Origin: Acidobacteriaceae bacterium
Lineage (GTDB): Bacteria; Acidobacteriota; Terriglobia; Terriglobales; Acidobacteriaceae
Length of the DNA stretch: 64,000 nt
NCBI GenBank assembly: GCA_003151335.1
Contig: PLXE01000104.1
Coordinates: 62,001 to 126,000 of the forward strand
Direction of reading: 5' to 3'
Shown here: positions 1 to 51,522 of the stretch, piece by piece
Position numbering within the stretch: position 1 is the stretch's first letter
Layout of the letters: every line of letters starts with the position of its first letter
The notes under the pieces: model-generated
Database searches by the model: none
What the model was told of the DNA's origin: nothing
Seen by the model: only the letters and a program-made list of their open reading frames with translations
Position numbers and translations under genes: made by a program

Positions 1-889
1 TGCCGAAATCAATCAGTTTGCCCTGGATTCCATACCGCGATGCGCGGAACTTGTTTTCCATGATGAGCGCACGGCCGTAGATGCGATAGCTTTTGTTCGA
101 TGCATGCAACTTGTAGAGCATGGCTATGGTCGCCTGAATCAGCGCCGCGATGGCGAGCGTTTCGTCAAGCCGCATGGGGATATCGCACACCCGCACCTCG
201 AGGGTGTCGAAGAACGGATGCGGGCGGATGTCCCACCAGATTTTCTTGCCGTTATCGATGCAATTGGTCTTGACCAGCAGATCGACGAAGGTCTCGTATT
301 CCGCCCAGTTGGCGAAAACATCGGGAATGTTGGTCCGCGGGAAGCGCTCAAACACTTTGCAGCGGTACGATTTAAACCCGGTATTCATGCCCATCCAGAA
401 GGGCGAATTCGACGACAGCGCCAGAATGTGCGGCAGGAAATAGCGCATGGAATTCATGATGTGGATGGCGGTGTTGCGGTCTTCAATGCCGATGTGGACG
501 TGCAATCCGAAAACCAGATTGGCGCGCGCGATGAGCTGCATGTCCTCGACCACCTGCGCATAGCGCTCGTCAGGATAGATCTCCTGCATCTTCCAGTCGG
601 AAAAGGGATGAGTGCCGGCCGCCGCCAGCAACATGCCCTGCTCACTGGCGAGGGTGATCATTTCGCGGCGGAGCGACTGGATGTTCTCGCGCGCTTCCTT
701 GATGTCCCTGCAAACGCGGGTGCCAACCTCGATCACCGACTGGTGCATCTCGGGCTTGACCGCCTCGTGCAGCGCCAGCTTGGCTTTGGGGAGAATCTCA
801 GAGGCGATGTGCGAGCGCAGATCGCGCGTCTCCGGATCGATCGTCTGATATTCCTCTTCAATGCCGATGCTGAGGCTTGGCCGCTCCAT
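1..889 (-). CDS. Carboxylate-amine ligase, YbdK/GCS2 type (3' end outside window)
   Basis: Enzymes of this glutamate-cysteine-ligase-like family join an amino acid carboxylate to an amine using ATP; the substrate here is unknown. The protein starts MERPSLSIGIEEEYQTID, the typical GCS2 opening with its metal/substrate-binding Glu residues. It reads without a stop to base 1, where the family motif NKFRASRYGIQGKLIDF is visible. About 296 residues are present and the C-terminal part is missing. The start lies 4 bases after the stop of the upstream ATP-grasp gene, and its Shine-Dalgarno AAGGA overlaps that gene's last codons, so the two are almost certainly cotranscribed and coupled. Family assignment is firm; the product is not known. 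Confidence 0.9.
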   Translation of the reverse strand, partial: MERPSLSIGIEEEYQTIDPETRDLRSHIASEILPKAKLALHEAVKPEMHQSVIEVGTRVCRDIKEARENIQSLRREMITLASEQGMLLAAAGTHPFSDWKMQEIYPDERYAQVVEDMQLIARANLVFGLHVHIGIEDRNTAIHIMNSMRYFLPHILALSSNSPFWMGMNTGFKSYRCKVFERFPRTNIPDVFANWAEYETFVDLLVKTNCIDNGKKIWWDIRPHPFFDTLEVRVCDIPMRLDETLAIAALIQATIAMLYKLHASNKSYRIYGRALIMENKFRASRYGIQGKLIDFG

Positions 890-27987: not shown

Positions 27988-28010
27988 AAAACCTGCTCTA
28001 CATACAGGTT
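27988..28010 (-). terminator. Ancestral terminator of the tRNA-Ala gene, now displaced
   Basis: On the minus strand AACCTG-tatgtagag-CAGGTT is followed by TT. It lies 9 bases beyond the tRNA 3' end copy at 28019. Before the element inserted it would have directly followed the tRNA-Ala gene; it is now 10 kb away from it. Confidence 0.55.
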
Positions 28011-28018
28011 ACTTGTTT

Positions 28019-28063
28019 TGGTGGAGCTAGTCGGGATCGAACCGACGACCTCATCGTTGCGAA
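28019..28063. repeat. attL: 45-bp core repeat of the tRNA-Ala 3' half
   Basis: These 45 bases are identical to 38031-38075 and cover the tRNA from the anticodon loop to the CCA end. The identity stops sharply on both sides. This copy is not a working tRNA because the 5' half is missing. Confidence 0.93.
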
Positions 28064-28201
28064 TTATCAGTGTCGATAAAGCTGCGAGCGGCACGGATGA
28101 GCGCAAGTGGCGCGCGTCCGCAGAGTTACGCCAATCCAGGGCCCCAAAATGCTGAGCCACTATAGCAGGATTAAGCAGGGATTTGCACCCTTGGCGGATG
28201 G

Positions 28202-28228
28202 GGTTATGACACAAAGCACGGCACAAAA
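28202..28228 (+). promoter_or_regulatory. Candidate integrase arm-type sites, right arm of attP
   Basis: GGTTATGACACAAA (28202-28215) is identical to 37961-37974 near the other end. A second, weaker copy CGGCACAAA starts 12 bases after TGACACAAA, the same step as on the other arm. Confidence 0.55.
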
Positions 28229-28362
28229 TTGGAGAGTTTTCGCTGTGACCGTCGTTCGTCGCCGGCGTAGTGTTAGACTCTCTCGGACAATAACAACGCG
28301 CCGCGCCGATGCGTTCCACACCGACGCGACGCTAACCAAAGAATGCCCCAAGGAGGCACACA

Positions 28363-28788
28363 ATGGCTAGCTCTACGATACCGATTGACACTCCGATTGC
28401 AAAACAGATCACGCTCCAGGCTCCCACCATCTACGACGAAGTGCTGGCGATCATTCCGCGCCGCTTATTCAGCACGCCTGTTACCGGCCCCATCTACGGG
28501 TTCTTTCTTGACGTGATCGAATCGTATATCCCAACGCTGCTGGGCGACATCCGCGAGTATTGCACCGGCGACGATAACCGTGACGCGCTGCTCCATGGCG
28601 AGCATGCTGTCTACTGCCTGCGCCGCCGGGTGGCCGCGCTGCGCGGGCTATCATCGGAGGCTTGTGAGTTGGTGGACCCGGCCTATGCGCTCGTGATCGA
28701 AGCGTTTGCGGCTGCGCACAGCGAGGAGTTTCACCGGGAAGGCGAAAGCTTCGCAGACGACTGGCGGAACTGGAAGCGTGGCGCATGA
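28363..28788 (+). CDS. Unknown protein of the element
   Basis: A 141-residue soluble, mostly helical protein; I do not recognise it. The first gene inside the left end. Its start has a near-perfect SD (AAGGAGGCACACA-ATG), so it is very likely expressed. The acidic C-terminal half (EAFAAAHSEEFHREGESFADDW) may bind a partner. It overlaps the next gene by four bases (ATGA). Position next to the attachment site is where satellites often keep accessory or interference genes (inference). Confidence 0.72.
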   Translation: MASSTIPIDTPIAKQITLQAPTIYDEVLAIIPRRLFSTPVTGPIYGFFLDVIESYIPTLLGDIREYCTGDDNRDALLHGEHAVYCLRRRVAALRGLSSEACELVDPAYALVIEAFAAAHSEEFHREGESFADDWRNWKRGA

Positions 28789-29003
28789 CTGACAACTTGA
28801 CAAAGGAATTGGCGTGGAAATCACTCGCGGATTACACTGAGGCAATATCCAGGTGGGCACGGCTGCGCGCAGCAAGGGAAGCTGGCAACGACCACATGCT
28901 CACACAGCAGGAGCTAGATTTCTTCGAGCAACTCGCGGACCAGGTTGAGGCGATCGGAAAGACCCTCGGGATCAATCTGCCCGAACCTAAAGGTATTCAG
29001 TGA
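28785..29003 (+). CDS. Small unknown protein of the element
   Basis: A 72-residue helical protein (MTDNLTKELAWKSLADYTEA...) with no recognisable family. It is translationally coupled to the 141-residue protein by an ATGA overlap, so the two products probably act together. A rho-independent terminator follows 36 bases after its stop. Confidence 0.65.
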   Translation: MTDNLTKELAWKSLADYTEAISRWARLRAAREAGNDHMLTQQELDFFEQLADQVEAIGKTLGINLPEPKGIQ

Positions 29004-29038
29004 GCACGCGCCAGCAGTAGCGGCTTGCTGGCTACAAT

Positions 29039-29068
29039 CACCGTCTCCGCGTGGGACGGTGATTTTTT
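29039..29068 (+). terminator. Rho-independent terminator
   Basis: A 7-bp stem CACCGTC/GACGGTG with a 9-base loop, followed by ATTTTTT. It ends the two-gene unit 28363-29003 and isolates the next gene. Confidence 0.8.
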
Positions 29069-29224
29069 GCCGATTTGCCGCTGCCAGGATGCGCCACAGT
29101 CAACGATCTCTTGCCGGGTGATGTCTAGCACCACCATCCTCGCCCTTCGGCGGCCCGTGATGATGGTCTCAGCTAACGCTCGCCAGGAAACGGTTAGCCT
29201 CAACCGAAAAAGGGATGTCCCGCC

Positions 29225-29252
29225 TTGCAACGCGGATCTTTGCAGCTACAAT
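29225..29252 (+). promoter_or_regulatory. Sigma70-like promoter of the secreted-protein gene
   Basis: TTGCAA (29225-29230), a 16-base spacer and TACAAT (29247-29252). The start codon follows 25 bases after the -10 box. Confidence 0.55.
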
Positions 29253-29276
29253 GCGTATTGTCGAGGACAAGCGTCC

Positions 29277-29816
29277 ATGAAAATCCGCGCATCTCTGGCC
29301 AGCCTCATTCTGCTAGGTGCCATCGGCATGGCAGCCCAGGCGTCACGCTTTGAATTTAAAGGTGACGCCCTGGGAATGCTTCTGTCTACTTTTGAGGGCA
29401 GACATAACCTAGGTTGTGAAGCAGGAAATGGGAAACCTGCCGCCGGCCGCCTGGGCTTAGTGCAATGCGAATTGGTTACCACCATAGCAAACCACCCAGC
29501 AGACACGGCGATCTACAGGTTCTTAGACCATAATCTCTTCCTGATAGACGTTACCTTTCCACACGAAGCATTCAAGGACGTCCTTCGAGCCGTTGGCGAA
29601 AAGTACGGACGTCCAATTCAAGAGTCGACTGAAACGTTGCAAAATAGCTTTGGAGCGCGGTACGTTGGGCGCCTCATTCTTTGGCGCAGAGGCACCGATG
29701 CGATCACGCTGCGAGAGTATGCCGGCGGTTTAACTACCTCCGAGATGAACATCGTCGACAACAAGTTACTACGCGCGGCACAAAGCCGCTTCCCGAAAGA
29801 TAAACCCGATTTCTAG
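29277..29816 (+). CDS. Secreted protein carried by the element (moron-like)
   Basis: A 179-residue protein with a signal peptide (MKIRASLASLILLGAIGMAAQA). The mature part (FKGDALGMLLSTFEGRH...C...C, then LIDVTFPHEAFKDVLRAVGEKYGRP) resembles small periplasmic proteins found widely in bacterial chromosomes, not phage structural proteins. It has its own promoter and lies behind a terminator, facing the convergent structural block; this is how morons (lysogenic conversion genes) are placed. GAGGA precedes the ATG by about 9 bases. Longer frames upstream (to 29025) cross the terminator and are rejected. Confidence 0.75.
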   Translation: MKIRASLASLILLGAIGMAAQASRFEFKGDALGMLLSTFEGRHNLGCEAGNGKPAAGRLGLVQCELVTTIANHPADTAIYRFLDHNLFLIDVTFPHEAFKDVLRAVGEKYGRPIQESTETLQNSFGARYVGRLILWRRGTDAITLREYAGGLTTSEMNIVDNKLLRAAQSRFPKDKPDF

Positions 29817-29819
29817 CGC

Positions 29820-30572
29820 TCAGTCATAAACGCCGCCGTAGGGCAGAAGATTCACCACCGCTGGCTTGAAGGCTGCGATGACGGCACCCAAGGTGTTACT
29901 TCCGCTGGTTAGTGACCACTGAGGATTGATCGGGCTGGTATTTGAATCTATCAGCCAAGCGTCCGCACCAGCTTGGTTAGCTCCACTAGGATTTTCGCCT
30001 TGCAAGGTAAGTCCTGAATCTATGGCGAGACCCGTCATGTTGTTGTTTGCATCAAGCCCCGCATAAATTAACTCACCTGTTGCTGCTGGCGTTATAGAAC
30101 CAGCTTGCACAGAGGTGCGACCTCCTGCGGGCGCGATATAGCTATAGGCTGGCACATCTAATACAGCCGCCGTTGTCGCAGTCCCAGTCCACGCTCTCGC
30201 AAAAGCTGTCAGATAGGAAGCACTTGTCCCTACCGTGATACTCGTAGTAGCACTTGCAGTCGGCGCGTAACAATAGTAAATCCATAGTAAGGGGATGGCT
30301 GTAGAACCGGCTCGTAGCCATGTGTTCGGGCAGGCTGGGGTCGAAGTAACAGTCATCCCGGCAGCGTAGGCATACGCCCCTATTTCAACTGTGATGAGCG
30401 TGGCCCCGGTTGTGTTGGCGACGATTGTGCAGTGATTGCCGGTGTTGCATTGGCACGCTGAGTTTGTCCCCGTGCAGGTAGGATCAACCAAGGCTATCTG
30501 AGCAGAGCATGGCAACGCGAATAGTGCGAAGATGGTAATAAGTAATAGTTTTTTCATGGTTAGTTCGCTCAT
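29820..30572 (-). CDS. Secreted Thr/Ala/Ser-rich protein at the end of the structural block
   Basis: A 250-residue protein with a signal peptide (MKKLLLITIFALFALPCSAQ within the first 25) and a beta-rich mature part dominated by Thr, Ala, Ser and Gly (TTSITVGTSASYLTAFARAW, SGSNTLGAVIAAFKP). It looks like a surface or fibre-type beta-sandwich domain; I know no exact family. ATG 30572 has AAGGA upstream and overlaps the stop of the preceding gene (ATGA), so it is in the small-terminase operon. A signal peptide on a gene in a packaging operon is odd. Confidence 0.72.
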   Translation of the reverse strand: MSELTMKKLLLITIFALFALPCSAQIALVDPTCTGTNSACQCNTGNHCTIVANTTGATLITVEIGAYAYAAGMTVTSTPACPNTWLRAGSTAIPLLWIYYCYAPTASATTSITVGTSASYLTAFARAWTGTATTAAVLDVPAYSYIAPAGGRTSVQAGSITPAATGELIYAGLDANNNMTGLAIDSGLTLQGENPSGANQAGADAWLIDSNTSPINPQWSLTSGSNTLGAVIAAFKPAVVNLLPYGGVYD

Positions 30573-30955
30573 TGCAGTCCTTTCGCTTCGGGGTTTGCGG
30601 GTCCTTGGCTCTGGCAGCGCGCGAACGCAAAATCTGGAGAGATACCTTCGCCCACAAGGTGCGCCCAGAGTTGGGCAAAACCATTCTTCGCGGCCAGCCC
30701 GCGGTAGTGGGCAAGCTCGCCGGCCTCGCGCCGGGTGCGCTGCTCTTCCTGCAGCAGATCGAACCGCTCCCGCTCTGCCGGAGTCAGACCTTCCAGGTCC
30801 GCAGCATCGGCAAAATAAGGCTCTGCGCTCACTAATACCCACACCGCGGCGTCAGTGAAAGCCGTATCATCGCCGGCGAGAAAGCCTTCAAATTCTGCAC
30901 AGAAATTGCGACACGTTGATTTCTTTCCCTTCCCCGTCCTAAGTCTGCGAGGCAT
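30569..30955 (-). CDS. Unknown protein between small terminase and secreted protein
   Basis: A 128-residue soluble protein: basic N-terminus (MPRRLRTGKGKKST), an acidic FCAEFEGFLAGDDTAFTDA middle and a helical LTPAERERFDLLQEEQRTRREAGEL segment. No family recognised. ATG 30955 has AAGGA 6 bases upstream and overlaps the small terminase gene by 17 bases. Genes in this place in phages are often HNH nucleases or packaging helpers, but no HNH motif is visible. Confidence 0.68.
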   Translation of the reverse strand: MPRRLRTGKGKKSTCRNFCAEFEGFLAGDDTAFTDAAVWVLVSAEPYFADAADLEGLTPAERERFDLLQEEQRTRREAGELAHYRGLAAKNGFAQLWAHLVGEGISPDFAFARCQSQGPANPEAKGLQ

Positions 30956-31298
30956 ACCGGTTCCTTCCCAATAACGGCGGCCGACTCGCCGGAAGTGGTT
31001 CACCATCCAGGTCAAGTTCGCGCAACAGTCGCGCAAAGGCAATCATCGCCGCATGTTCTACCTTCACCGCTGGATGCTCACGCAAGACGCCGTATCGATC
31101 GTGTTGATAGCTGCCGTCTAAGGCAATGCGCTCCCTTGCCTCTTCGCCTCGGTCCAGTTGTTCAGCCGCCTTCGTCAACAGTAAAACGTGATGCTCCGCC
31201 AGTTCATAATCGCGAACTACGCGCTTCCACCAGGCAGCCGTGGGCTTTCTCAAGTACGTTGGAGCTCGGGGAAGCCGATTCTTGGCTGATTGAGTCAT
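30939..31298 (-). CDS. Phage terminase small subunit, P27 family
   Basis: Small terminases recognise the packaging site on phage DNA and hand it to the large subunit. The 119-residue protein opens with PTYLRKPTAAWWKRVVRDYELAEHHVLLL and continues AAEQLDRGEEARERIALDG, the P27/PF05119 pattern, followed by HPAVKVEHAAMIAFARLLRELDLD. GGGAGG precedes the ATG by 10 bases. No large subunit gene is in the element; in satellites the small subunit redirects a helper's packaging motor. Confidence 0.85.
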   Translation of the reverse strand: MTQSAKNRLPRAPTYLRKPTAAWWKRVVRDYELAEHHVLLLTKAAEQLDRGEEARERIALDGSYQHDRYGVLREHPAVKVEHAAMIAFARLLRELDLDGEPLPASRPPLLGRNRYASQT

Positions 31299-31680
31299 TT
31301 ACAGGTTCCTCCCGGGTTTACCGGCTTGTACCCCTGCGAACGGGGGAAACAAAAACGTACAGAAAGGCTGCGGCGTGGTCACGATTGAAATAAGCCCCAA
31401 CTTCTAACCGGCCCTGCCAACAACTTACAGCCATTCAAAGCGTCGTGCCTGTCTCACTCAAGCCCGACGCCATGCTTTGTGAAGCCGCAAGCGACCACAC
31501 AAACCTGATTGCATCGCACCAGGAACCGGCAGCACACCCGTTTAGGCCGCTGCCGATCCCGGGCGTTGTGGCTGAGGGGAATCGCGAGAAAGCCTCAGCC
31601 ATTGCCCGCGTGCGTGTTTCAATCACCGGAGAAAGGCGGTCCTAGCATCTCGCTCGGCACCATGCGCACGCGAAAGTTGC
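31299..31680. other. Gap without a clear gene between small terminase and protease
   Basis: 382 bases. On the minus strand a 21-residue frame starts in a GTGA overlap with the protease stop (MSNFRVRMVPSEMLGPPFSG...), and a 63-residue frame (31435-31626, GTG start) follows at once. Neither resembles a known phage protein nor has a good SD. A hairpin CCCC-tgcgaa-GGGG (around 31330-31345) lies just upstream of the terminase gene. This is where a portal or large terminase gene would sit in a full phage. Confidence 0.5.
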
Positions 31681-32199
31681 TCACCGCATCGCCTTGCGTA
31701 TCATCGCCCGCAAGTCCGCGATTGCGTGTAACTCGCCGGAGTGGTTGACGGCCTTCACTGCCGTGACCATCGCCGCTTCATTCATCGGGAAACCGGTCAG
31801 CGATACCTCGTGCAACTTCAACTCTTTCAAGTGCCGAATGCCATCCTGAATCACTGAGCGGGTGACGTCGTAACCTATGCTTAATCCCCGAACTGCCCCG
31901 GCTTTCATTAGGGCATAGGCTTTCTTCGCAACGTCATTCGAGTCGAGTACAAGTTGCCCGTGGATTTCGAGTCCTTGTTGTGTCTCATGTAGACGCCCGA
32001 TGCCCACGATTGCAGACGGATCATGCGCCCACAATACGGGCACTTCGCCGTTCTTGTCCGCGAGGGTTTTGGTAAATGCGCCGTGCTCGACTAGATCGCC
32101 GCCCGCGTCCACGTTGCCGAAAACGCTGGCGAGTCCGACAAACTCGCCAGCATCCCCGACCATTTCCTTGATCTCGAATTTCAGCCCTTTGCATGGCAT
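31681..32199 (-). CDS. HK97-family prohead protease (S78)
   Basis: Cleaves the scaffold part of the capsid protein during head maturation. The 172-residue protein has the family opening (FEIKEMVGDAGEFVGLASVFGNVDAGGDLVEHGAF), the catalytic His in VLWAHDPSAIVGIG and the catalytic Ser in VRGLSIGYDV. It lies 15 bases downstream of the capsid gene on the same strand; in most HK97-like phages the protease comes first, so the order here is reversed. Confidence 0.9.
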   Translation of the reverse strand: MPCKGLKFEIKEMVGDAGEFVGLASVFGNVDAGGDLVEHGAFTKTLADKNGEVPVLWAHDPSAIVGIGRLHETQQGLEIHGQLVLDSNDVAKKAYALMKAGAVRGLSIGYDVTRSVIQDGIRHLKELKLHEVSLTGFPMNEAAMVTAVKAVNHSGELHAIADLRAMIRKAMR

Positions 32200-32214
32200 A
32201 GTTCGATCTCCCGG

Positions 32215-33354
32215 TTAGAAGTTGCCCGCGACGAATGCAGTCGGTTGATACACTGTCAGTGCTAGCCGCTGCTCGCAGAGGATCGCTATCATGTTGAGAA
32301 CAAAGAAGTTAGCGTGTTCTCTACTGATTTCAAGTGTGCTCTGCATGCGGTCCCAGATTTCCGCGCCCGCCACGCTGAAGTCGCCAACCAGGAATGAGCC
32401 GACTGCCATCTTGGAGCTGACAACCAACGGTCTGCCCCACACGCTCGGTGGACCAGCAGCGTGCGGATCGCTGTAGATGTATTCGCCGCTGAAAATGTAA
32501 GTACCCGACTCCTTGATTAAACAGATATCGGTCCAGTCAGCGGGATTGACCACCACACCCGTAGCGCTAAATCCGGCCGCTTCCACTTGCCCGATTGCGC
32601 GCCTGATGCTGTCCAGCTTTGTTTCGCCCATGGGAACGGGTGACGGGGACTGATAAGGCGAGGCCGCGGGCATGAGCCCGGTTAGATCGCCGTTACTGCC
32701 CGTGCCGTTCAATAGCTGGTTTTCCTCGACCAGCTTGAGGAAATACAACATGCGGCGATTGACGAACGCCTGCAAAGCGTTTGAATCTTCGAGTACCTGT
32801 CTCGACGCGGGAATCCAGTGCGCCAGGGTTTGAATCGGTTGCGCCATAAGCTGGAAGCCGAGTGCTGACTCAGATTTCGCTACGTTTTCGTAGACTTGAG
32901 GGCTACTTCCAAATCCCTGGGGAGCTGCAGCATTGGTGTTTGAGGATTCGCGGACAAACTCGACAATGTTCGAGGTGGCCGGAGTGCTAACCAACAAATC
33001 CCTCACCCTTAGAGGAAGATAGATAGCGGTGATGTCGGGAACGCGCTGCGGCAACGCGTACAAGCTTCCGTCGGTGACAATCGCAGTTTTCTTGAAGAAA
33101 CTGGTGATGGGGATGCGGCCCGAGCTGCGCCTACCTTCCGCGAGAAAGCTCTTAAATTGATCGTGCTCGGTGACCAGCTCGCCCAGGCTCTTTATCTCGC
33201 CGGCGCCGCCGTTGGCGTAAACCGTTGACTTCGAGAGCCGCTGCTCGACTTGGGTCAGCCGCTCGTTTGTCTCTATGGTTTCGCTTTTGTGCTCTTTGAT
33301 GAAGGCGTGCACATCGTTGCCGAGTGCGTTTACAGCCTCTTCCATAGGTTCCAT
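32215..33354 (-). CDS. HK97-fold major capsid protein
   Basis: Main shell protein of the head. The 379-residue product has an N-terminal coiled-coil scaffold or delta region (about 1-65: NDVHAFIKEHKSETIETNERLTQVEQRL). The HK97 core then follows with PLRVRDLLVSTPATSNIVEFVRES, the ASRQVLEDSNALQAFVNRRML spine helix, NQLLNGTGSNGDLTGL and the C-terminal VGDFSVAGAEIWDRMQSTLEISRE. ATG 33354 has AAGGA 10 bases upstream. With the adjacent protease it would allow the element to make its own heads. Confidence 0.92.
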   Translation of the reverse strand: MEPMEEAVNALGNDVHAFIKEHKSETIETNERLTQVEQRLSKSTVYANGGAGEIKSLGELVTEHDQFKSFLAEGRRSSGRIPITSFFKKTAIVTDGSLYALPQRVPDITAIYLPLRVRDLLVSTPATSNIVEFVRESSNTNAAAPQGFGSSPQVYENVAKSESALGFQLMAQPIQTLAHWIPASRQVLEDSNALQAFVNRRMLYFLKLVEENQLLNGTGSNGDLTGLMPAASPYQSPSPVPMGETKLDSIRRAIGQVEAAGFSATGVVVNPADWTDICLIKESGTYIFSGEYIYSDPHAAGPPSVWGRPLVVSSKMAVGSFLVGDFSVAGAEIWDRMQSTLEISREHANFFVLNMIAILCEQRLALTVYQPTAFVAGNF

Positions 33355-33518
33355 GATGGAATAGTCCTTCCGCGCACGGATGCGCAATGAATTTGAATTG
33401 TGATTGATCGCCCGCGAGGTGGAAGGAACTGCTCCGGCGTCGCTGCGATGACGGCGTGTCCGCGCAGGTGGAAGCCTTTCTCCGGCGTGCGCGGCCAGGT
33501 GTCACTCTCAAGATACAT
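33330..33518 (-). CDS. Possible small protein upstream of the capsid gene
   Basis: A 62-residue frame (MYLESDTWPRTPEKGFHLRG...) fills the gap between the coiled-coil gene and the capsid gene and overlaps the capsid start by 25 bases in another frame. The composition looks protein-like but there is no SD and no known family. It may simply be a leader region. Confidence 0.3.
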   Translation of the reverse strand: MYLESDTWPRTPEKGFHLRGHAVIAATPEQFLPPRGRSITIQIHCASVRGRTIPSWNLWKRL

Positions 33519-33540
33519 CGCTGCGGTGACGATTGCAATA

Positions 33541-33858
33541 TCAATTCATGATCCCATCTTTCCGCGATGCCAGTAATAGTTCCAACCGCGTCAGCCGCCC
33601 GTCGAACAGATCAAGCAACTTGTGAAATCCTTCCGCGTGCTTGCGCAGCGTACCGATAGCTCCGTCCAGGGCGACAATCGCGGAGCGCGCGGCTTCATCC
33701 TGATCTCTGAATTTAGCCGGTAGATCGACGTTAAACGCGTCGCTCAGCGCGGCAAAATTCTCCTTCGCGATGGTATTGTTGTCGGTCAACTCTCGGGCAA
33801 CTCGCTCAAGTTCCGCGATACGTTGTTCCAACGATAGCGCCACCAGTTCATCGGTCAT
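33541..33858 (-). CDS. Coiled-coil protein of the element
   Basis: A 105-residue, almost fully helical protein with heptad spacing (LEQRIAELERVARELTDNN and LRKHAEGFHKLLDLFDGRLTRLELLLA). No family recognised. Its ATG overlaps the stop of the TubC-like gene (ATGA). Lying just upstream of the capsid gene, it could be a scaffold or size-determining protein; it could equally belong to the replication module. Both are inference. Confidence 0.7.
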   Translation of the reverse strand: MTDELVALSLEQRIAELERVARELTDNNTIAKENFAALSDAFNVDLPAKFRDQDEAARSAIVALDGAIGTLRKHAEGFHKLLDLFDGRLTRLELLLASRKDGIMN

Positions 33859-34262
33859 TTTTCCATCTCCTCTACATTAACTTGCACGCCGACCTGCTCC
33901 AGCCTTTCCACAAGGTCGCGCACGCTCCAGTTGCCGGCGGCCCAGGGCTTTCGCTGGATAGAGGCCTCCAGTTGCCGCAGAGTCGTTTCGGCGAATCTCT
34001 GCGGATCCAAAACTACGGAGATCGTGTTTATCTCGACGGGCGGAGGCTTCAGGTCCCATCGCAGCAGGCGCACGCCGGCCGGCATGTGAACCTCCGGGCC
34101 GCCGCGGTCTTGTAACGCGCGGTACACTTCATCCCGAATCCTTCGCAGTTCGGGAACGAGCACTTGGGCCTCATCCGTCAGCGCGCAGCGGATACGGTCA
34201 CCATCGATTGCCAAACTCCCGCCCAGGTCCTCGATCTGCCGAATTACCTCTACGGCGGTCAT
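33855..34262 (-). CDS. TubC-type docking domain protein
   Basis: A 135-residue protein whose first 50 residues (VIRQIEDLGGSLAIDGDRIRCAL...LVPELRRIRDEVYRAL) match the pattern of TubC N-terminal docking domains. These are common in mobile elements next to primase or helicase genes. The C-terminal half is unrecognised. It overlaps both neighbours by four bases (ATGA at each end), between the replication ATPase and the coiled-coil protein, so it probably helps replication. Confidence 0.7.
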   Translation of the reverse strand: MTAVEVIRQIEDLGGSLAIDGDRIRCALTDEAQVLVPELRRIRDEVYRALQDRGGPEVHMPAGVRLLRWDLKPPPVEINTISVVLDPQRFAETTLRQLEASIQRKPWAAGNWSVRDLVERLEQVGVQVNVEEMEK

Positions 34263-35836
34263 ATCAGCACCTCGTTTCGCTTGGCCGGAGCTATCGGTTT
34301 CGTTATCGGTTCCGGAGCGGTATTAGATTTTTCGCTGTTTTCGGTTCCACCAGGGTCGATCGGTACAGATCGGTACCCCCCTAAAGGGGGTGTACCGATG
34401 TACCGATCTCCCGGACACCCCTGGCTGGAACTATCGGTATCATCGGTTCCAGCGTCGGTACAACTTTCCTGTACCGATGGCCCGTAGAGAAAAGATCGTC
34501 CTTTCGGGGCCATCTCCCACCGGGAACCGGTGTATTCCTTTAGGAGTCTTATGCCGCGATTCTTATTACCTCCCCAGCGCTCGAGTACTTGGTTTTGTGC
34601 CAACCATGGCTGCCGGCGAATGATCTCGGCCAGGGCCTCAACGTCGGCCATCACCTTGGCCAACTGTGGGCTGTCTGTAACCTCGAATGTCCCTTCCTCG
34701 AAATCCGGCCTAATGGTGAGCACCGGACGCTCTCCAAATCGATTCTTGACACAGCGCAGAGTTATCAGACCGGTTTCGTCCGACAACTCTTGCATGTACG
34801 CCAGATCTACGGCGCCCCGGATAGCGGTAGAACCTCTGCCCGTCGAACCTTCAACCTTTGCCGGGTGATGGAAAACAATTACCGTTGCGCCGGCCACAAC
34901 ACAGGCCCGCAGGTCCTTCATAACCTGCATCATCTCAGTGGAGTCGTTTTCCTCAGCCCCATGTGCATATCTGAAAGGATCGAAGATCATTAACGGTTGA
35001 ACCGCTTTGGCGATCGTGGGCAGAAGCTGGCTTCCTACCTGTGGCGGCTGTTCTGTGATCCACGTGCCCCATATTCTAAGATTCGGACCAGGCGCCGCAC
35101 CCATCAACTCCAACCGCGAGCGCACCACAAAGTTGGGATTTTCGTAGTCGAGGTAGAGCACCGGCAGTTTGCGGCATTGAGCACCCAGGAACTTGCCGCC
35201 AGTTGAGACGGCGATGGCGAGATTTTGCGCAAGATATGTTTTGGCGGTTCCGTCTATGCCAGTCCAAAGGGTCAAGCTTTTGCGGGGGAGTAAGCCCTGG
35301 ACGACGTAATCCATCGGGTCGATTTGCAGGGTCAACAAGTCTGGAACGGAATCGAAGTCTCGGATGGGCGCCGGGCTGTTGCTGCTTTCGTATTGCCCTG
35401 CCAGGCGATCAAGGTCAAGGAGATGGGTGCGGAGGTCTGATACATCAGCCCCTTTGCGCGCCAGCTCGCAGATTGCCTCGGTGCCGTGGGCAACGTGGCG
35501 CGCTCCGGCGTTGCTGCGGATCATACTCACATAATGATCGATCGACGGCCGATCCGGTACTCCATCTATCAGCGAGGACAGATACACAACCCCTCCGATG
35601 GGCTCGAGTTCGCCGTGCTGTTCGAGTTCCACCGATAATGTGATCATGTCCACGGGCCGGCCGGTATCCATCAGGTCACGCATGCTCGAGTAAATGATCC
35701 CATTCGCCGGGAGCAAAAAGTCGCCGGGTTCGAGCGGGGCAGCTTGCGACCAAAGCGCATTGTCCAGCAGCACGGCACCCAAGACCGCGGGCTCGACCCT
35801 GATGCTATCGATCGGCGATGTCGGCGCTCTAGCCAC
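34259..35836 (-). CDS. Replication ATPase: DnaB N-terminal domain fused to RepA-like RecA fold
   Basis: A 525-residue protein. Residues 10-107 match the DnaB helicase N-terminal domain (PAVLGAVLLDNALWSQ, GRPVDMITLSVELEQHGEL). Residues 180-400 are a RecA-type ATPase like plasmid RepA (AAA_25): Walker A GIDGTAKT at 193-200, with Ala in place of the usual Gly before Lys, Walker B PLMIFDPFR at 281-289, and VIVFHHPAK. The last 70 residues are Thr/Ser/Gly/Pro-rich because the DNA there is a cluster of iteron-like repeats. It probably drives replication of the excised element. Confidence 0.85.
   Translation of the reverse strand: MARAPTSPIDSIRVEPAVLGAVLLDNALWSQAAPLEPGDFLLPANGIIYSSMRDLMDTGRPVDMITLSVELEQHGELEPIGGVVYLSSLIDGVPDRPSIDHYVSMIRSNAGARHVAHGTEAICELARKGADVSDLRTHLLDLDRLAGQYESSNSPAPIRDFDSVPDLLTLQIDPMDYVVQGLLPRKSLTLWTGIDGTAKTYLAQNLAIAVSTGGKFLGAQCRKLPVLYLDYENPNFVVRSRLELMGAAPGPNLRIWGTWITEQPPQVGSQLLPTIAKAVQPLMIFDPFRYAHGAEENDSTEMMQVMKDLRACVVAGATVIVFHHPAKVEGSTGRGSTAIRGAVDLAYMQELSDETGLITLRCVKNRFGERPVLTIRPDFEEGTFEVTDSPQLAKVMADVEALAEIIRRQPWLAQNQVLERWGGNKNRGIRLLKEYTGSRWEMAPKGRSFLYGPSVQESCTDAGTDDTDSSSQGCPGDRYIGTPPLGGYRSVPIDPGGTENSEKSNTAPEPITKPIAPAKRNEVLI
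34292..34478. other. Iteron cluster, candidate replication origin
   Basis: At least ten copies of (G)ATCGGTWnC or its complement GTACCGAT in 187 bases: starts near 34292, 34304, 34339, 34358, 34368, 34392, 34400, 34432, 34441, 34453 and 34471. The central part, 34358-34408, is an inverted pair of direct repeats around CCCCCTAAAGGGGG. It lies inside the 3' end of the replication ATPase gene (codons about 454-516). Origins inside rep genes are known from satellites and phages. Confidence 0.7.
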
Positions 35837-35838
35837 GC

Positions 35839-36072
35839 TTAGGCGCTCTGCCCGGCCGTGCGAGCGGCCTTGCGTGGCCGGCCAGGGCGTGGGACCTCGA
35901 GACCTTCCTGCTGGGCCCTGGAAACCTCTTCAACCGAGCACATCACACGGGATCCGATTCGAACGCTTTTGAGAGTGCCGGCGTTGATAAACCGCCTCAC
36001 GCCGTAAATTGAGACGCCGAGCGCCTCTGCGACTTTCTCTAAGGGAACCAATCGTGAAACGAGTTCGACCAT
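35839..36072 (-). CDS. AlpA-like excisionase/HTH protein
   Basis: A 77-residue DNA-binding protein with a MerR/AlpA-type helix-turn-helix (LVPLEKVAEALGVSIYGVRRFINAGTLKSVRIGSRVMCS) and a basic tail PRPGRPRKAAR. Such proteins act as excisionases or activators in satellites and prophages. ATG 36072 has AAGGTGG upstream; ATG 36093 is the alternative. The stop is 2 bases before the replication ATPase start, so it leads that operon. It is divergent from the CGNR regulator. Confidence 0.82.
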   Translation of the reverse strand: MVELVSRLVPLEKVAEALGVSIYGVRRFINAGTLKSVRIGSRVMCSVEEVSRAQQEGLEVPRPGRPRKAARTAGQSA

Positions 36073-36122
36073 GATGCTGTGTCCACCTTCCATTCAGAAT
36101 TTCTAACCGCTGCACAATAATG

Positions 36123-36140
36123 TTTGCGCTTTCTCGCAAA
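36123..36140. promoter_or_regulatory. Operator palindrome TTTGCG-N6-CGCAAA
   Basis: A perfect 6-6-6 inverted repeat in the divergent promoter region, overlapping the -35 box of the regulator-integrase promoter. It is the natural candidate site for the CGNR-like regulator or the AlpA-like protein. Confidence 0.55.
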
Positions 36141-36152
36141 ATGGTCTAGAAT
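36124..36152 (+). promoter_or_regulatory. Promoter of the CGNR regulator-integrase operon
   Basis: TTGCGC (36124-36129), 17 bases, TAGAAT (36147-36152). The chosen ATG is 56 bases after the -10 box. Confidence 0.5.
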
Positions 36153-36207
36153 CTTTTTTACGACAGATATGGCACATAACCGTCGGACAAATATCCCGAA
36201 GGAACTG

Positions 36208-36840
36208 ATGAGCCAAGGTGAAAATACGGCCTGGTTGCTTAACGAGCGCCCTGAGGTTAGAGACCTTGCGCCACTGGTCGATGATCTCCAGGCGTATGGA
36301 AGAGTGTTCGAGGAGTGGAGCAAAAAATCTCGTCGAGACTTTCGAGGATTGGTCAGCCTGATCGACGCCCTGCAGGTCCATCACGGTCTTTACGATCAGA
36401 TGTGGAAGAAGTCTCGCAAATGGATGAGCGGCGAGCTGGCGGCGATAGACGACAGACTCTCCGAGCGCCTGAAAAGGTACGATAGCCGGCCGTTTCCATT
36501 TCCATCTCGCCGCGGAACAATGGGGATCTCCATTGGCCGGGAATTACTGAACAAAAAGGTTCGTTTGATAGAGGCGCGGGTGTTCAACACGATTACGCGG
36601 CTCATTGAGCATGATGAGTTCGATCGTCTTCGGCGCTGCGCCCGCAAGGAGTGCAGAAGGTGGCTGTTTGCGGGTCGCAGGCGAGACAAAAGGTACTGCA
36701 GCACTCTTTGCAGGCAAACTGACTTCGAAAACACCCCGGAACGAAAGAAGCAGAAACTTGCGCGCGCTCGCGGCAGGTATCCACTAGAGTTATTGGGTCG
36801 GCGCCCGCACAGGAGGAAGCATGCTGCAAAAACGCGGTAA
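36208..36840 (+). CDS. CGNR-type zinc-finger regulator
   Basis: A 210-residue predicted DNA-binding protein. The C-terminal zinc finger is C-A-R-K-E-C at the start, then RWLFAGRRRDKRYCSTLC, the layout of CGNR proteins, with CRQTD in place of CGNR. The N-terminal part is helical (DLAPLVDDLQAYGRVFEEW) and may bind a ligand or dimerise. ATG 36208 has AAGGA 4 bases upstream; ATG 36169 is an alternative without SD. It is divergent from the AlpA-like gene and overlaps the integrase gene by 20 bases; a master repressor role is likely (inference). Confidence 0.75.
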   Translation: MSQGENTAWLLNERPEVRDLAPLVDDLQAYGRVFEEWSKKSRRDFRGLVSLIDALQVHHGLYDQMWKKSRKWMSGELAAIDDRLSERLKRYDSRPFPFPSRRGTMGISIGRELLNKKVRLIEARVFNTITRLIEHDEFDRLRRCARKECRRWLFAGRRRDKRYCSTLCRQTDFENTPERKKQKLARARGRYPLELLGRRPHRRKHAAKTR

Positions 36841-38095
36841 GACCTGGCATTGCGACTTTGTCGCCGACGGCGTTCGCTATCGCCAGTCGCTGAAAACGAC
36901 AGACTGGCGCGTTGCACAGCGCAGGGAAAGCGACCTCAAGAAAGAAGCCGACGCCGGCAAGGTAGCCGCTGACTCGAAACGTAAATCTCTCGTGCGCCTG
37001 GCATTCAAGGATGCGGCTGCGCGCTTCATTGCCGATCGCGCGCCTAACTGGGCTCCGCTGACGATCCGGACCGAGCGCGAGCGAGCGCGAGCCGTGAATC
37101 TTGTTTTCGGATCGCGGACCGTATCATCCCTCACGCCTGACGATGTTCTCGACTACATCCGCCAGCGCAAAACGGCCGGCAAGTCTAACGCGACTGTCAA
37201 TCGCGAGCTTGACGTCATCCGTGGGGTTTTGAAAAAGGCGAAGCGCTGGCATCGCTTCGCCGATGAGGTAAAACCGCTCAAGGTAAGCGAAAACATCGGC
37301 CGCGCGCTGCAGCACGATGAGAAATTGCGATTGCTGCGGATCGCGACGTCGCGCCCCGGCTGGCAATCGGCCTACTATGCTTCTGTCCTGGCATTCAATA
37401 CAACGTGCCGCGGCTGCGAGCTGAAGGGCCTGCAGTGGCGCGACGTGGACCTAATTAACCGCGCGATCACGATTCGACGCAGCAAGACGGAAGCCGGGCT
37501 CCGAGTCATTCCGCTGAATGCCGATGCGTTCGCCGCGATCACCGCGCTCTATCGTCGCGCACAGCAGCTCGGGCCGCTTGAGCCCAGCCATTATGTGTTC
37601 TTTTCTTGCGAGCGTGGCGCCATAGACCCGACGCGCCCACAAAAGAGCTGGCGAACCGCTTGGCGAAGCCTCACCAGGGCGGTACGCTGCACCAAGTGCG
37701 GGCTCCTACAGGACCCCGCGGCGAGCTGCAGCGCAAAAAACTGCGGAGAGGATCTGAGCAAGCTAAAAAGCCCGCTCGCCGGGCTGCGCTTTCACGATGT
37801 GCGCCACCACGCAATCACAGAGCTAGCGGAATCCCAAACCAGCGACCAGACGATCATGAGCATCGCCGGTCACGTCTCCACAAAAATGCTCGAGCATTAT
37901 TCACACATCCGCCTGGCAGCCAAGCGAACCGCGTTGGACGGGCTTTCGATGGGTCGGGCAGGTTATGACACAAACCATGTCACAAAGCGGCCGGAAGCCG
38001 CTGACGCTGACTCGCAAGTGATTGAAAATATGGTGGAGCTAGTCGGGATCGAACCGACGACCTCATCGTTGCGAACGATGCGCTCTCCCAGCTGA
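36821..38095 (+). CDS. int: Tyrosine recombinase (integrase) ending in attR
   Basis: Integrates and excises the element at tRNA-Ala. The 424-residue protein has a SAM-like core-binding domain (60-150) and the catalytic set R197 (TTCRGCELKGL), K222, H325-x-x-R328, H351 and Y360. An inserted zinc-ribbon-like CxxC...CxxxxC (Cys 290, 293, 303, 308) precedes the HxxR box. AGGAGG lies 4 bases before ATG. The last 20 codons run through the attachment core and the tRNA (antisense). In the excised circle the same frame continues through the core to a stop at 28155, giving 448 residues with a different end. Confidence 0.93.
   Translation: MLQKRGKTWHCDFVADGVRYRQSLKTTDWRVAQRRESDLKKEADAGKVAADSKRKSLVRLAFKDAAARFIADRAPNWAPLTIRTERERARAVNLVFGSRTVSSLTPDDVLDYIRQRKTAGKSNATVNRELDVIRGVLKKAKRWHRFADEVKPLKVSENIGRALQHDEKLRLLRIATSRPGWQSAYYASVLAFNTTCRGCELKGLQWRDVDLINRAITIRRSKTEAGLRVIPLNADAFAAITALYRRAQQLGPLEPSHYVFFSCERGAIDPTRPQKSWRTAWRSLTRAVRCTKCGLLQDPAASCSAKNCGEDLSKLKSPLAGLRFHDVRHHAITELAESQTSDQTIMSIAGHVSTKMLEHYSHIRLAAKRTALDGLSMGRAGYDTNHVTKRPEAADADSQVIENMVELVGIEPTTSSLRTMRSPS
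37961..37986 (+). promoter_or_regulatory. Candidate integrase arm-type sites, left arm of attP
   Basis: GGTTATGACACAAA (37961-37974) followed 12 bases on by TGTCACAAA (37978-37986). The same pair with the same 12-base step occurs at 28202-28227, the other side of the core in the circle. Confidence 0.55.
37986..38002 (-). terminator. Hairpin downstream of tRNA-Ala, brought by the element
   Basis: On the minus strand AGCGGC-ttccg-GCCGCT is followed by TTG. It lies 29 bases beyond the tRNA 3' end and could replace the displaced host terminator. Confidence 0.4.
38031..38075. repeat. attR: 45-bp core repeat within tRNA-Ala
   Basis: Identical to 28019-28063. Here it forms the 3' part of the intact tRNA gene, from the anticodon loop to CCA, so integration keeps the tRNA functional. 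Confidence 0.93.
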
Positions 38096-38106
38096 GCTAT
38101 AGCCCC
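38031..38106 (-). tRNA. tRNA-Ala (anticodon CGC)
   Basis: A 76-base tRNA including encoded CCA. The acceptor stem is GGGGCTA/TAGCTCC, the D-arm GCTC...GAGC, the anticodon arm CATCG-TTCGCAA-CGATG with anticodon CGC, and the T-arm GTCGG-TTCGATC-CCGAC, followed by discriminator A. It reads codon GCG. It is the attachment site of the 10-kb element, whose copy supplies the 3' half. Confidence 0.97.
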
Positions 38107-38161
38107 ACAGGGGTTGGGAACAAGGGAAGTGCGGGCGGCCATCAGACCCGCTCGCGTCCTC

Positions 38162-38190
38162 ATTATACAAAGAATGCCGGGTGCATGAAA
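38162..38190 (-). promoter_or_regulatory. Promoter of tRNA-Ala
   Basis: On the minus strand TTTCAT, 17 bases, TATAAT (38167-38162). The tRNA starts 55 bases downstream, so a short 5' leader would be removed by RNase P. Confidence 0.55.
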
Positions 38191-38289
38191 TACGCGACAA
38201 CTCGCGATAGATCGCCGCACAATCTTCTCTTCGTGGGCCGCCGGTCCTTCACAATACCGTGAGAAAGATTGCCGCGCCGATGGTCAGCA

Positions 38290-51092: not shown

Positions 51093-51522
51093 AACAGCAC
51101 GATGGTAGCAGTAGCCAGTGGCCAGTTGCCAGTGGTCAGGTGCGAGTAGCCAGTAGCCAGTAGTCAGTTGCCAGTTGTCCCATTCTGTCGAAGTGATTCG
51201 ACCCGCAGTCCAACCACCGGGGTTTAGCTTCAGACTGGCAGTAATGGCCATCCATCGGGACTGGCGGCAGCATGTCGAATTCACCAACTATTCACGTTCT
51301 GTTCATTGTCCTCTGATGTAGACGAGTGGCCGTGCAGGTAAGCTATTTTCAATTGCAAACCTGATCGGAGAGAGTGGGGAGATGGCCAAACAGCCGCTCC
51401 CCGATTTTTATTGCAGTGGCCGGTAATCAGTTCCCAGTCCCCAACCCCCAGTTCCCAGTTGCCAGTACTGACTACTGACTACTGGCAACTGGCTACTGGC
51501 TACTCCCTTATAATCTCCCCAC
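51093..51522. other. Divergent region hutU/glycerate kinase with repeats and an orphan terminator
   Basis: 430 bases. Degenerate tandem words (CAGTAGCCAGTTGCCAGT) fill 51110-51180 and recur in inverted orientation at 51414-51508. Between them is about 230 bases of unique DNA ending in a good rho-independent terminator (51376-51410) on the + strand, with no + strand gene before it. A small RNA could be encoded here. Confidence 0.5.
51376..51410 (+). terminator. Orphan rho-independent terminator
   Basis: GGGGAG-a-TGGC-loop-GCCG-CTCCCC followed by GATTTTTA. The nearest gene on its left (hutU) is on the other strand, so it would end an unseen + strand transcript. Confidence 0.6.

Follow-up and report, generated by a model that had tools for sequence, protein, structure and literature searches.

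A cluster of short repeated words at the 3′ end of a predicted helicase gene, rep, is probably the replication origin of a ~10-kb satellite-like element integrated at a tRNA gene, and the element's own helicase-initiator would use it. This reading is based on the sequence of a 64-kb stretch of DNA (hereafter the window) and on comparisons with relatives of rep, with named phage and plasmid records, and with palindromes in viral contigs. In the viral contigs, the palindromic core of the cluster, repeated words, and AAA_25-like helicase genes are statistically linked. The features of the element are collected in Table 1.

Table 1. Features of the element and of the proposed origin in the window.
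Feature	Coordinates	Strand	Basis or remark
Whole element, between exact 45-bp repeats (28019-28063, 38031-38075) at tRNA-Ala gene	28019..38075	.	
Terminase small-subunit-like protein (weak)	30939..31298	-	phrog_83 1.8e-7; Terminase_4 1.2e-4, under its cut-off
Prohead serine protease	31681..32199	-	Peptidase_S78 8.4e-25
HK97-type major capsid protein	32215..33387	-	Phage_capsid 2e-40
Gene after rep; product with neither Pfam nor PHROG match	33855..34262	-	ATG overlaps rep stop (ATGA, 34259-34262)
rep, 525-aa initiator helicase (predicted)	34259..35836	-	Pfam, profile match, AlphaFold2, Foldseek
Rep domains: DnaB N-terminal 8-150; RecA-type AAA_25 ~177-388; winged helix 390-453; disordered tail 456-525			model residues
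Winged-helix codons (residues ~389-456), proposed iteron-binding domain	34469..34673	-	models
Proposed origin, iteron cluster embedded in rep 3′ end	34285..34484	.	word count, shuffles, synonymous null
Outlying word ATCGGTTC, 1 mismatch	34305..34312	+	word search
Two ATCGGTAC words (34359-34366, 34369-34376), left of core	34359..34376	+	word search
Core palindrome CCCCCTAAAGGGGG, 14 bp	34377..34390	.	sequence; similar cores in relatives
Two reverse ATCGGTAC words (34392-34399, 34400-34407), right of core	34392..34407	-	word search
Outlying words 34433-34440, 34442-34449, 34454-34461, 1 mismatch each	34433..34461	+	word search
Outermost word, exact; boundary of winged-helix and tail codons	34471..34478	-	word search, model
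AlpA/excisionase-like HTH protein, upstream of rep	35839..36093	-	HTH_17 5.3e-6, phrog_66 1.8e-6
Tyrosine integrase	36821..38095	+	Pfam Phage_integrase 2.5e-18

According to the initial annotation, a short word is repeated about eleven times at the 3′ end of the replication gene. The cluster is real: within the proposed origin, ATCGGTAC occurs 10 times with at most one mismatch on either strand, 5 of these being exact, and 13 times with at most two mismatches. The ten words span 34305-34478, occur on either strand and in every codon phase (0, 1, and 2), and include one at 34363-34370 that overlaps the adjoining words. The central two-plus-two inverted arrangement around CCCCCTAAAGGGGG, described at the outset, is likewise present. 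The best 8-mer in this region has 11 near-matches (at most one mismatch) per 200 bp, whereas 300 base shuffles averaged 3.0 and never exceeded 5. What characterizes an iteron origin, a short word repeated above chance beside an initiator gene, is found here. The cluster is the densest 200-bp segment in the 64 kb (step 100). In the whole window, ATCGGTAC matches number 47 against 30.6 expected. The runner-up (9, at 51100) belongs to the second densest repeats in the window, intergenic clusters of 7-bp units (GTAGCCA, CAGTTCC, and TACTGGC types) at 51105-51504. The core alone is unremarkable in the window, where CCCCTN{1,3}AGGGG occurs once, as it also does in 10 of 100 shuffles; the longer CCCCCTN{1,3}AGGGGG has a single occurrence in the 4.65-Mb genome, which is the cluster core.

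Rep matched AAA_25 (5.8e-26) and DnaB (1.4e-22), the only Pfam families at E ≤ 0.01; no DUF927 or D5/Primase_Cterm match was found, and neither a prim-pol nor an SF3 helicase family was matched. Its closest solved relative is RSF1010 RepA (1g8y, profile match 9.6e-18). The AlphaFold2 model, built from an alignment of 15 sequences, has a mean pLDDT of 79.9 and retrieved DnaB first in Foldseek (8.7e-18); whole-chain TM-scores were 0.25-0.45 among the matches listed, as expected if the Rep domains are arranged differently. Modelled on its own, the winged helix reached a pLDDT of 86.5 and resembled winged-helix repressors, none at E < 0.001. The tail had been described as low-complexity, and it is indeed rich in Thr, Ser, Gly, Pro, and Asp and predicted to be disordered (pLDDT below 50 for residues 456-525, and 32-40 per block from residue 461). 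Since the codon of residue 456 lies at 34469-34471, the stretch holding the words comes right after the codons of the folded part.

The tRNA-Ala gene extends over 38031-38106, and its 38031-38075 part is identical to 28019-28063; this exact 45-bp repeat indicates an integrated element of about 10 kb. An Rfam scan of 28000-38200 returned the tRNA only. Ten ORFs were scanned with Pfam and PHROG, the ORFs at 28064-30568 being left out. Between the att repeats, we found the gene set of a capsid-forming satellite (cf-PICI), namely, an integrase, an AlpA-like regulator, rep, a capsid protein, a protease, and a weak small terminase; judged by these matches, the element could be either such a capsid-forming phage satellite or a prophage that has been reduced. 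The cf-PICIs typically carry further packaging genes, such as those for the portal, the large terminase, and the connectors. A 238-aa ORF without a Pfam or PHROG match lies between the AlpA-like gene and the integrase (36124-36840). Elsewhere, one contig has two further places that partly match the tRNA-Ala/att region (G000:C11:21584-21639, L480; C11:4339-4432, L482); they are separated by 17 kb and possibly mark another element at a related tRNA gene.

A single-sequence search for relatives of rep in genome contigs and viral contigs found none, and relatives were found instead by an alignment-based search. Of 298 genomes, 146 gave matches, but most of the matching rows were confined to the N-terminal DnaB domain and represent chromosomal dnaB; such chromosomal loci (L010-L032) were used as controls. 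By name, the relatives are from Acidobacteria assemblies, and among 34 proteins encoded around rep in five of them, the integrase family was seen four times and the capsid family twice. The relatives carry similar cores in the same place with different words: CCGCCTCTTTAGAGGCGG in L004, CACCCCTTAGGGGTG in L005, CACCCCTTATAGGGGTG in L008, CCTCCCCTATATGGGGAGG in L009, and CCCCCCTAAGGGGGG in L054. The words are of the GTACC type in L004, L005, and L006, as in the window, of the GTGGCGA type in L008, and of the GGAACTGGTTCC type in L009. Words and core lie inside the gene end in L004 and L009, after the stop in L005 and L008, and on both sides of it in L006. Three further long matches (G090:C52, G233:C59, and G170:C121) stand outside this set, and L007, which has stops inside, and L048, a fragment, were excluded from the core counts. 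L007 (G210:C377) is a broken rep relative with stops of all three kinds and another rep piece nearby, suggesting a decayed element.

An automatic test for the core within 300 bp of the stop was passed by the window and by 10 of 14 relatives, compared with 0/15 for a control core; at the chromosomal dnaB loci, the core was found in 0/21 and the control core in 1/21. The 14 relatives were hand-picked after palindromes were visible, and some equally scoring AAA_25 loci without a core (e.g., L061, L063, and L066) were left out; L051 and L076, both close relatives, lacked a core. When AAA_25 sets were assembled with less selection and duplicates by C-terminal sequence removed, the core was present at 15 of 64 loci (7/20, 6/27, and 2/17) and the control core at 2 of 64 (0, 2, and 0); a stricter first rule gave 5/20, 5/27, and 3/18. 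These counts indicate that genes of this subfamily commonly have the core nearby, but that its distribution across the wider AAA_25 family is patchy. A conserved rep without repeats, which the initial annotation had named as one case against an origin here, is not the rule among close relatives, and in the less selected sets the core is not universal. Where AAA_25 loci had both core and words (62 loci), the centre of the core lay between −136 and +424 of the stop (range searched, 450 bp either way). Covariation between the word and the C-terminal domain, in what is a weak test, gave a partial r of 0.06 (permutation p 0.05).

Of nine named phage or plasmid records (L470-L478), four have a word with four or more copies within 400 bp of the stop. 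A clear core was found only in L472, and weak palindromes passed the rule in L474 (+262) and L477 (+186). In L472, the gp62 region of Burkholderia phage BcepGomr, a RepA-type helicase gene is followed by AAAAATAA-type words and by CTCCCCTTTAGGGGAG 106 bp past the stop; this putative origin, where no feature is annotated, lies after the stop codon, whereas that of the window is inside the gene. Over the same 400-bp range, three of five plasmid records (L672-L676) have a word with four or more copies, and 0/5 have the core. Words behind RepA-type genes are seen without a clear core in Microcystis phage L471, the E. coli phage-plasmid L474, and Arthrobacter phage L476, and without a core in Aulosira plasmid L673 and Klebsiella plasmid L676. 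These cases favour replication over packaging for the words, not for the core.

To avoid choice by protein, we also reversed the test and sought exact palindromes in 2.9 million viral contigs. The first scans, with CCCCCTATAGGGGG, CCCCCTAAAGGGGG, and the control GGGGGTATACCCCC, gave at least 120 stretches each; in a second, independent pair, the core CCCCCTTATAGGGGG gave at least 120 and the control GGGGGTTATACCCCC 62 in all. A site was called word-flanked when some 8-mer occurred at least four times within 200 bp of the palindrome. Among the matches listed, the raw word-flanked counts were 71/109 for CCCCCTATAGGGGG, 44/114 for CCCCCTAAAGGGGG, and 8/107 for GGGGGTATACCCCC, and random positions in the same contigs gave 9/259, 6/283, and 6/253. 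Removing redundancy lowered the counts to 28/62, 35/98, and 6/75 (Fisher p 4.6e-7 for CCCCCTATAGGGGG and 1.1e-5 for CCCCCTAAAGGGGG against the control, again among the matches listed). The second pair behaved in the same way: CCCCCTTATAGGGGG was word-flanked at 83/115 raw and 27/52 non-redundant sites among the matches listed, and GGGGGTTATACCCCC at 1/54 and 1/39 (p 8.5e-8). In L504 and L509, CCCCCTTATAGGGGG occurs twice per contig, 242 bp apart on one strand.

The gene ending near the palindrome carried Pfam AAA_25 in 25/46 cases for CCCCCTATAGGGGG and 34/76 for CCCCCTAAAGGGGG, compared with 2/55 for GGGGGTATACCCCC (p 4e-9 and 3e-8; all among the matches listed). Prim-Pol was found in 8/46 and 9/76 of these genes among the matches listed and was absent from the best 25 of 27 families at the control GGGGGTATACCCCC. 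With redundant sites retained, an AAA_25-like 3′ end lay within 500 bp at 30/80 (CCCCCTATAGGGGG), 43/102 (CCCCCTAAAGGGGG), and 36/93 (CCCCCTTATAGGGGG) sites among the matches listed, against 2/90 for GGGGGTATACCCCC (among the matches listed) and 0/42 for GGGGGTTATACCCCC. The AAA_25-like HMM behind these last counts was iterated on the loci of the first three scans and matches DnaB too; the CCCCCTTATAGGGGG and GGGGGTTATACCCCC loci were outside its training. The 115 word-flanked sites among the matches listed, the window included, have 71 distinct words, which would fit iterons re-coded lineage after lineage; the words lie on both sides at 86 of the sites and in both orientations at 109. Where different-word sites had a clear majority per side (39 among the matches listed), the words were inverted across the core in 30 and not in 9 (p 0.001). 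No GC-skew switch was seen at 33 sites.

Could the cluster instead serve packaging, as a pac/cos-like site to which the terminase small subunit binds, and lie at the junction of replication and packaging genes by chance? We regard this as unlikely, and it is the main rival because many word-flanked sites have no AAA_25-like gene and small terminases are found among the neighbours. Among the matches listed, no AAA_25-like 3′ end lay within 500 bp at 27/42 and 15/38 word-flanked sites with 1000 bp on each side; at sites without words, one did so in 12/29 and 17/57. Around 12 word-flanked sites without an AAA_25-like gene, Terminase_2 and phrog_51 were each found in 4 of 38 proteins, and a replication-initiation family in 2. 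At 42 AAA_25-adjacent sites, the best 25 of 117 families include several small-terminase families (2-3/93 proteins each), among them phrog_309 (3/93) and phrog_51 (2/93), and the element itself has a TerS-like gene by a weak match. On the other hand, this gene is 3 kb from the cluster, no other Pfam family comes near AAA_25 in frequency for the gene that ends there (the 25/46 and 34/76 above, among the matches listed), and cyanobacterial plasmids in whose listed annotation no terminase appears likewise have words behind RepA-type helicase genes (ACCTAACA four times in 800 bp in L673 and three times in L674). In L096, L123, L140, L256, L538, and similar contigs, cores flanked by GGTAAGTA/ACTTACCA, TACGTCAA, or related words are found between genes. 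Such contigs have no AAA_25-like gene on the DNA examined, and the set of 38 neighbours includes small-terminase and O-like initiator matches.

Somewhat less likely again is that the words are operators through which the operon is repressed or activated, either by Rep or by the AlpA-like protein. Each of the two has a helix-turn-helix domain, and iteron-type initiators often autoregulate; yet the cluster is at the 3′ end of rep, not before rep or the integrase, and the ATGA overlap places the next gene probably on the rep transcript. That the core is a transcription terminator hairpin is very improbable and largely refuted already. Although the inverted repeat is G+C-rich and near gene ends, its loop has 0-3 bases, it lies in the window within a reading frame whose stop is overlapped by the next gene on the same strand, and T-runs beside word-flanked cores (8/74 and 5/45) are no commoner than at a control palindrome (18/116), random positions giving 6-8% (all among the matches listed).

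The claim that the DNA rather than the protein is under selection at the rep tail has held up computationally. We redrew the tail codons from rep's own codon usage (tail included) in 5000 trials. At least ten near-matches appeared in 0/5000, any 8-mer five times in 0/5000, five exact words in 1/5000, and a CCCC-T-W-A-GGGG core in 1/5000. Selection thus seems to act on the DNA, because the words lie in three phases and on two strands, the synonymous null gave 0/5000, the tail starts where the folded winged helix stops, and the relatives place the stop codon before, inside, or after the words. L005 has no tail after the winged helix, and the other relatives have tails differing in length and sequence. 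The weakest reading, that the words are only the codons of a repetitive, low-complexity tail, is hardly tenable and largely refuted already, since, for all the Thr/Ser/Gly in the tail, neither the phases, strands, and synonymous null nor the variation in tail length from none (L005) to 70 residues (window) agrees with it.

For the origin reading, we propose that Rep is a self-loading initiator whose C-terminal winged helix would bind the ATCGGTAC words as iterons. Its position, and the analogy with known systems, make it likely that the winged helix reads the words. The RecA-type ring would then assemble and open the DNA, either at the dyad-symmetric CCCCCTAAAGGGGG core or next to it, and the DnaB-like N-terminal domain may recruit the host primase. 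On the inverted words, two rings could be loaded facing opposite ways. The putative origin lies directly behind the winged-helix codons and, as the frame stays open through it, would also be translated into the disordered tail. The frame is possibly kept open because the ATG of the next gene overlaps the rep stop (ATGA; seen by eye in L004 as well), which would probably keep that gene coupled.

Comparison with known systems supports the origin reading, with a layout that appears SaPI-like but with a different helicase family and core. In the available text of PMC7581432 (citing Ubeda 2007), the C-terminal domain of the SaPI Rep binds iterons just downstream of the rep gene; SaPI Reps are DUF927- or D5-type helicases, and two hexamers are proposed (PMC7581432). 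As in the SaPI replicon so described, there is a satellite-encoded helicase (with self-loading proposed), a C-terminal DNA-binding domain (putative here), and iterons at or behind the rep 3′ end. Unlike in SaPIs, the Rep motor is RecA-type AAA_25/DnaB-like, the cluster lies inside the gene, and the dyad core is G+C-rich. The same text describes SCCmec Cch2 as a D5-type helicase whose C-terminal domain binds repeats downstream of its own gene, with three 5-nt iterons in a putative origin (PMC7581432). Here too, a helicase gene is adjoined by short repeats and a C-terminal domain would be the binder, but the motor and core of the window differ from that D5-type, three-iteron arrangement. In plasmids of the pRN1 family, the available text places the origin behind rep, with a stem-loop needed for replication and a winged helix in the replication protein, and a stem-loop of this type also lies behind the replication protein of phage BIP-1 (PMC4234260). 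The putative origin position at the rep end and the winged helix are shared, whereas pRN1, as described there, has a prim-pol and SF3 helicase and a 100-nt stem-loop with no iterons claimed, and the window has a 14-bp core with iterons.

Like RSF1010 (IncQ) RepA, Rep is by the AAA_25 and 1g8y matches a RepA-type hexameric helicase. IncQ replicons use a separate RepC and primase, and in the IncQ1 record L672, repA, repC, and a RepB-domain gene are separate genes. Among the ten ORFs scanned (Pfam and PHROG), no separate gene for a RepC iteron binder or a primase was found, and, unlike in IncQ, the winged helix is fused to Rep in the model. The O protein of phage lambda, which depends on P and DnaB, is not a helicase. 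In the available text on lambda, the origin iterons are inside the initiator gene O (PMC7157519), an arrangement that the cluster resembles.

Whether a common, apparently undescribed origin class exists, in which the RecA-type (AAA_25/DnaB-like) initiator helicases encoded by phages and satellites have a CCCYTWWARGGG-type dyad core in common while the iterons are re-coded by lineage, is in our judgement evenly balanced. In such a class, the helicase would recognize the core, and an interchangeable winged helix the words. The N-terminal domain in the wider set is Prim-Pol, Toprim, or, as in Rep, DnaB-like, a variation that would fit different ways of obtaining primers. In a text and topic search of the literature, with subscription papers and preprints outside its scope, none of the passages available among the matches listed prints this core in an origin context.

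If such a class exists, sequence alone would be enough to locate the origin in an element of this kind and to suggest its initiator. If the origin reading is true, the origin here would be written over a coding tail, with the stop of the relatives falling before, inside, or after it. Furthermore, a 14-15-bp pattern together with repeated words would locate unmapped origins of phages and satellites and the helicases that use them. A division in which the motor domain goes with the shared core and the winged helix with iterons that can change would be testable, and it may bear on the compatibility of satellites or their competition with helper phages.
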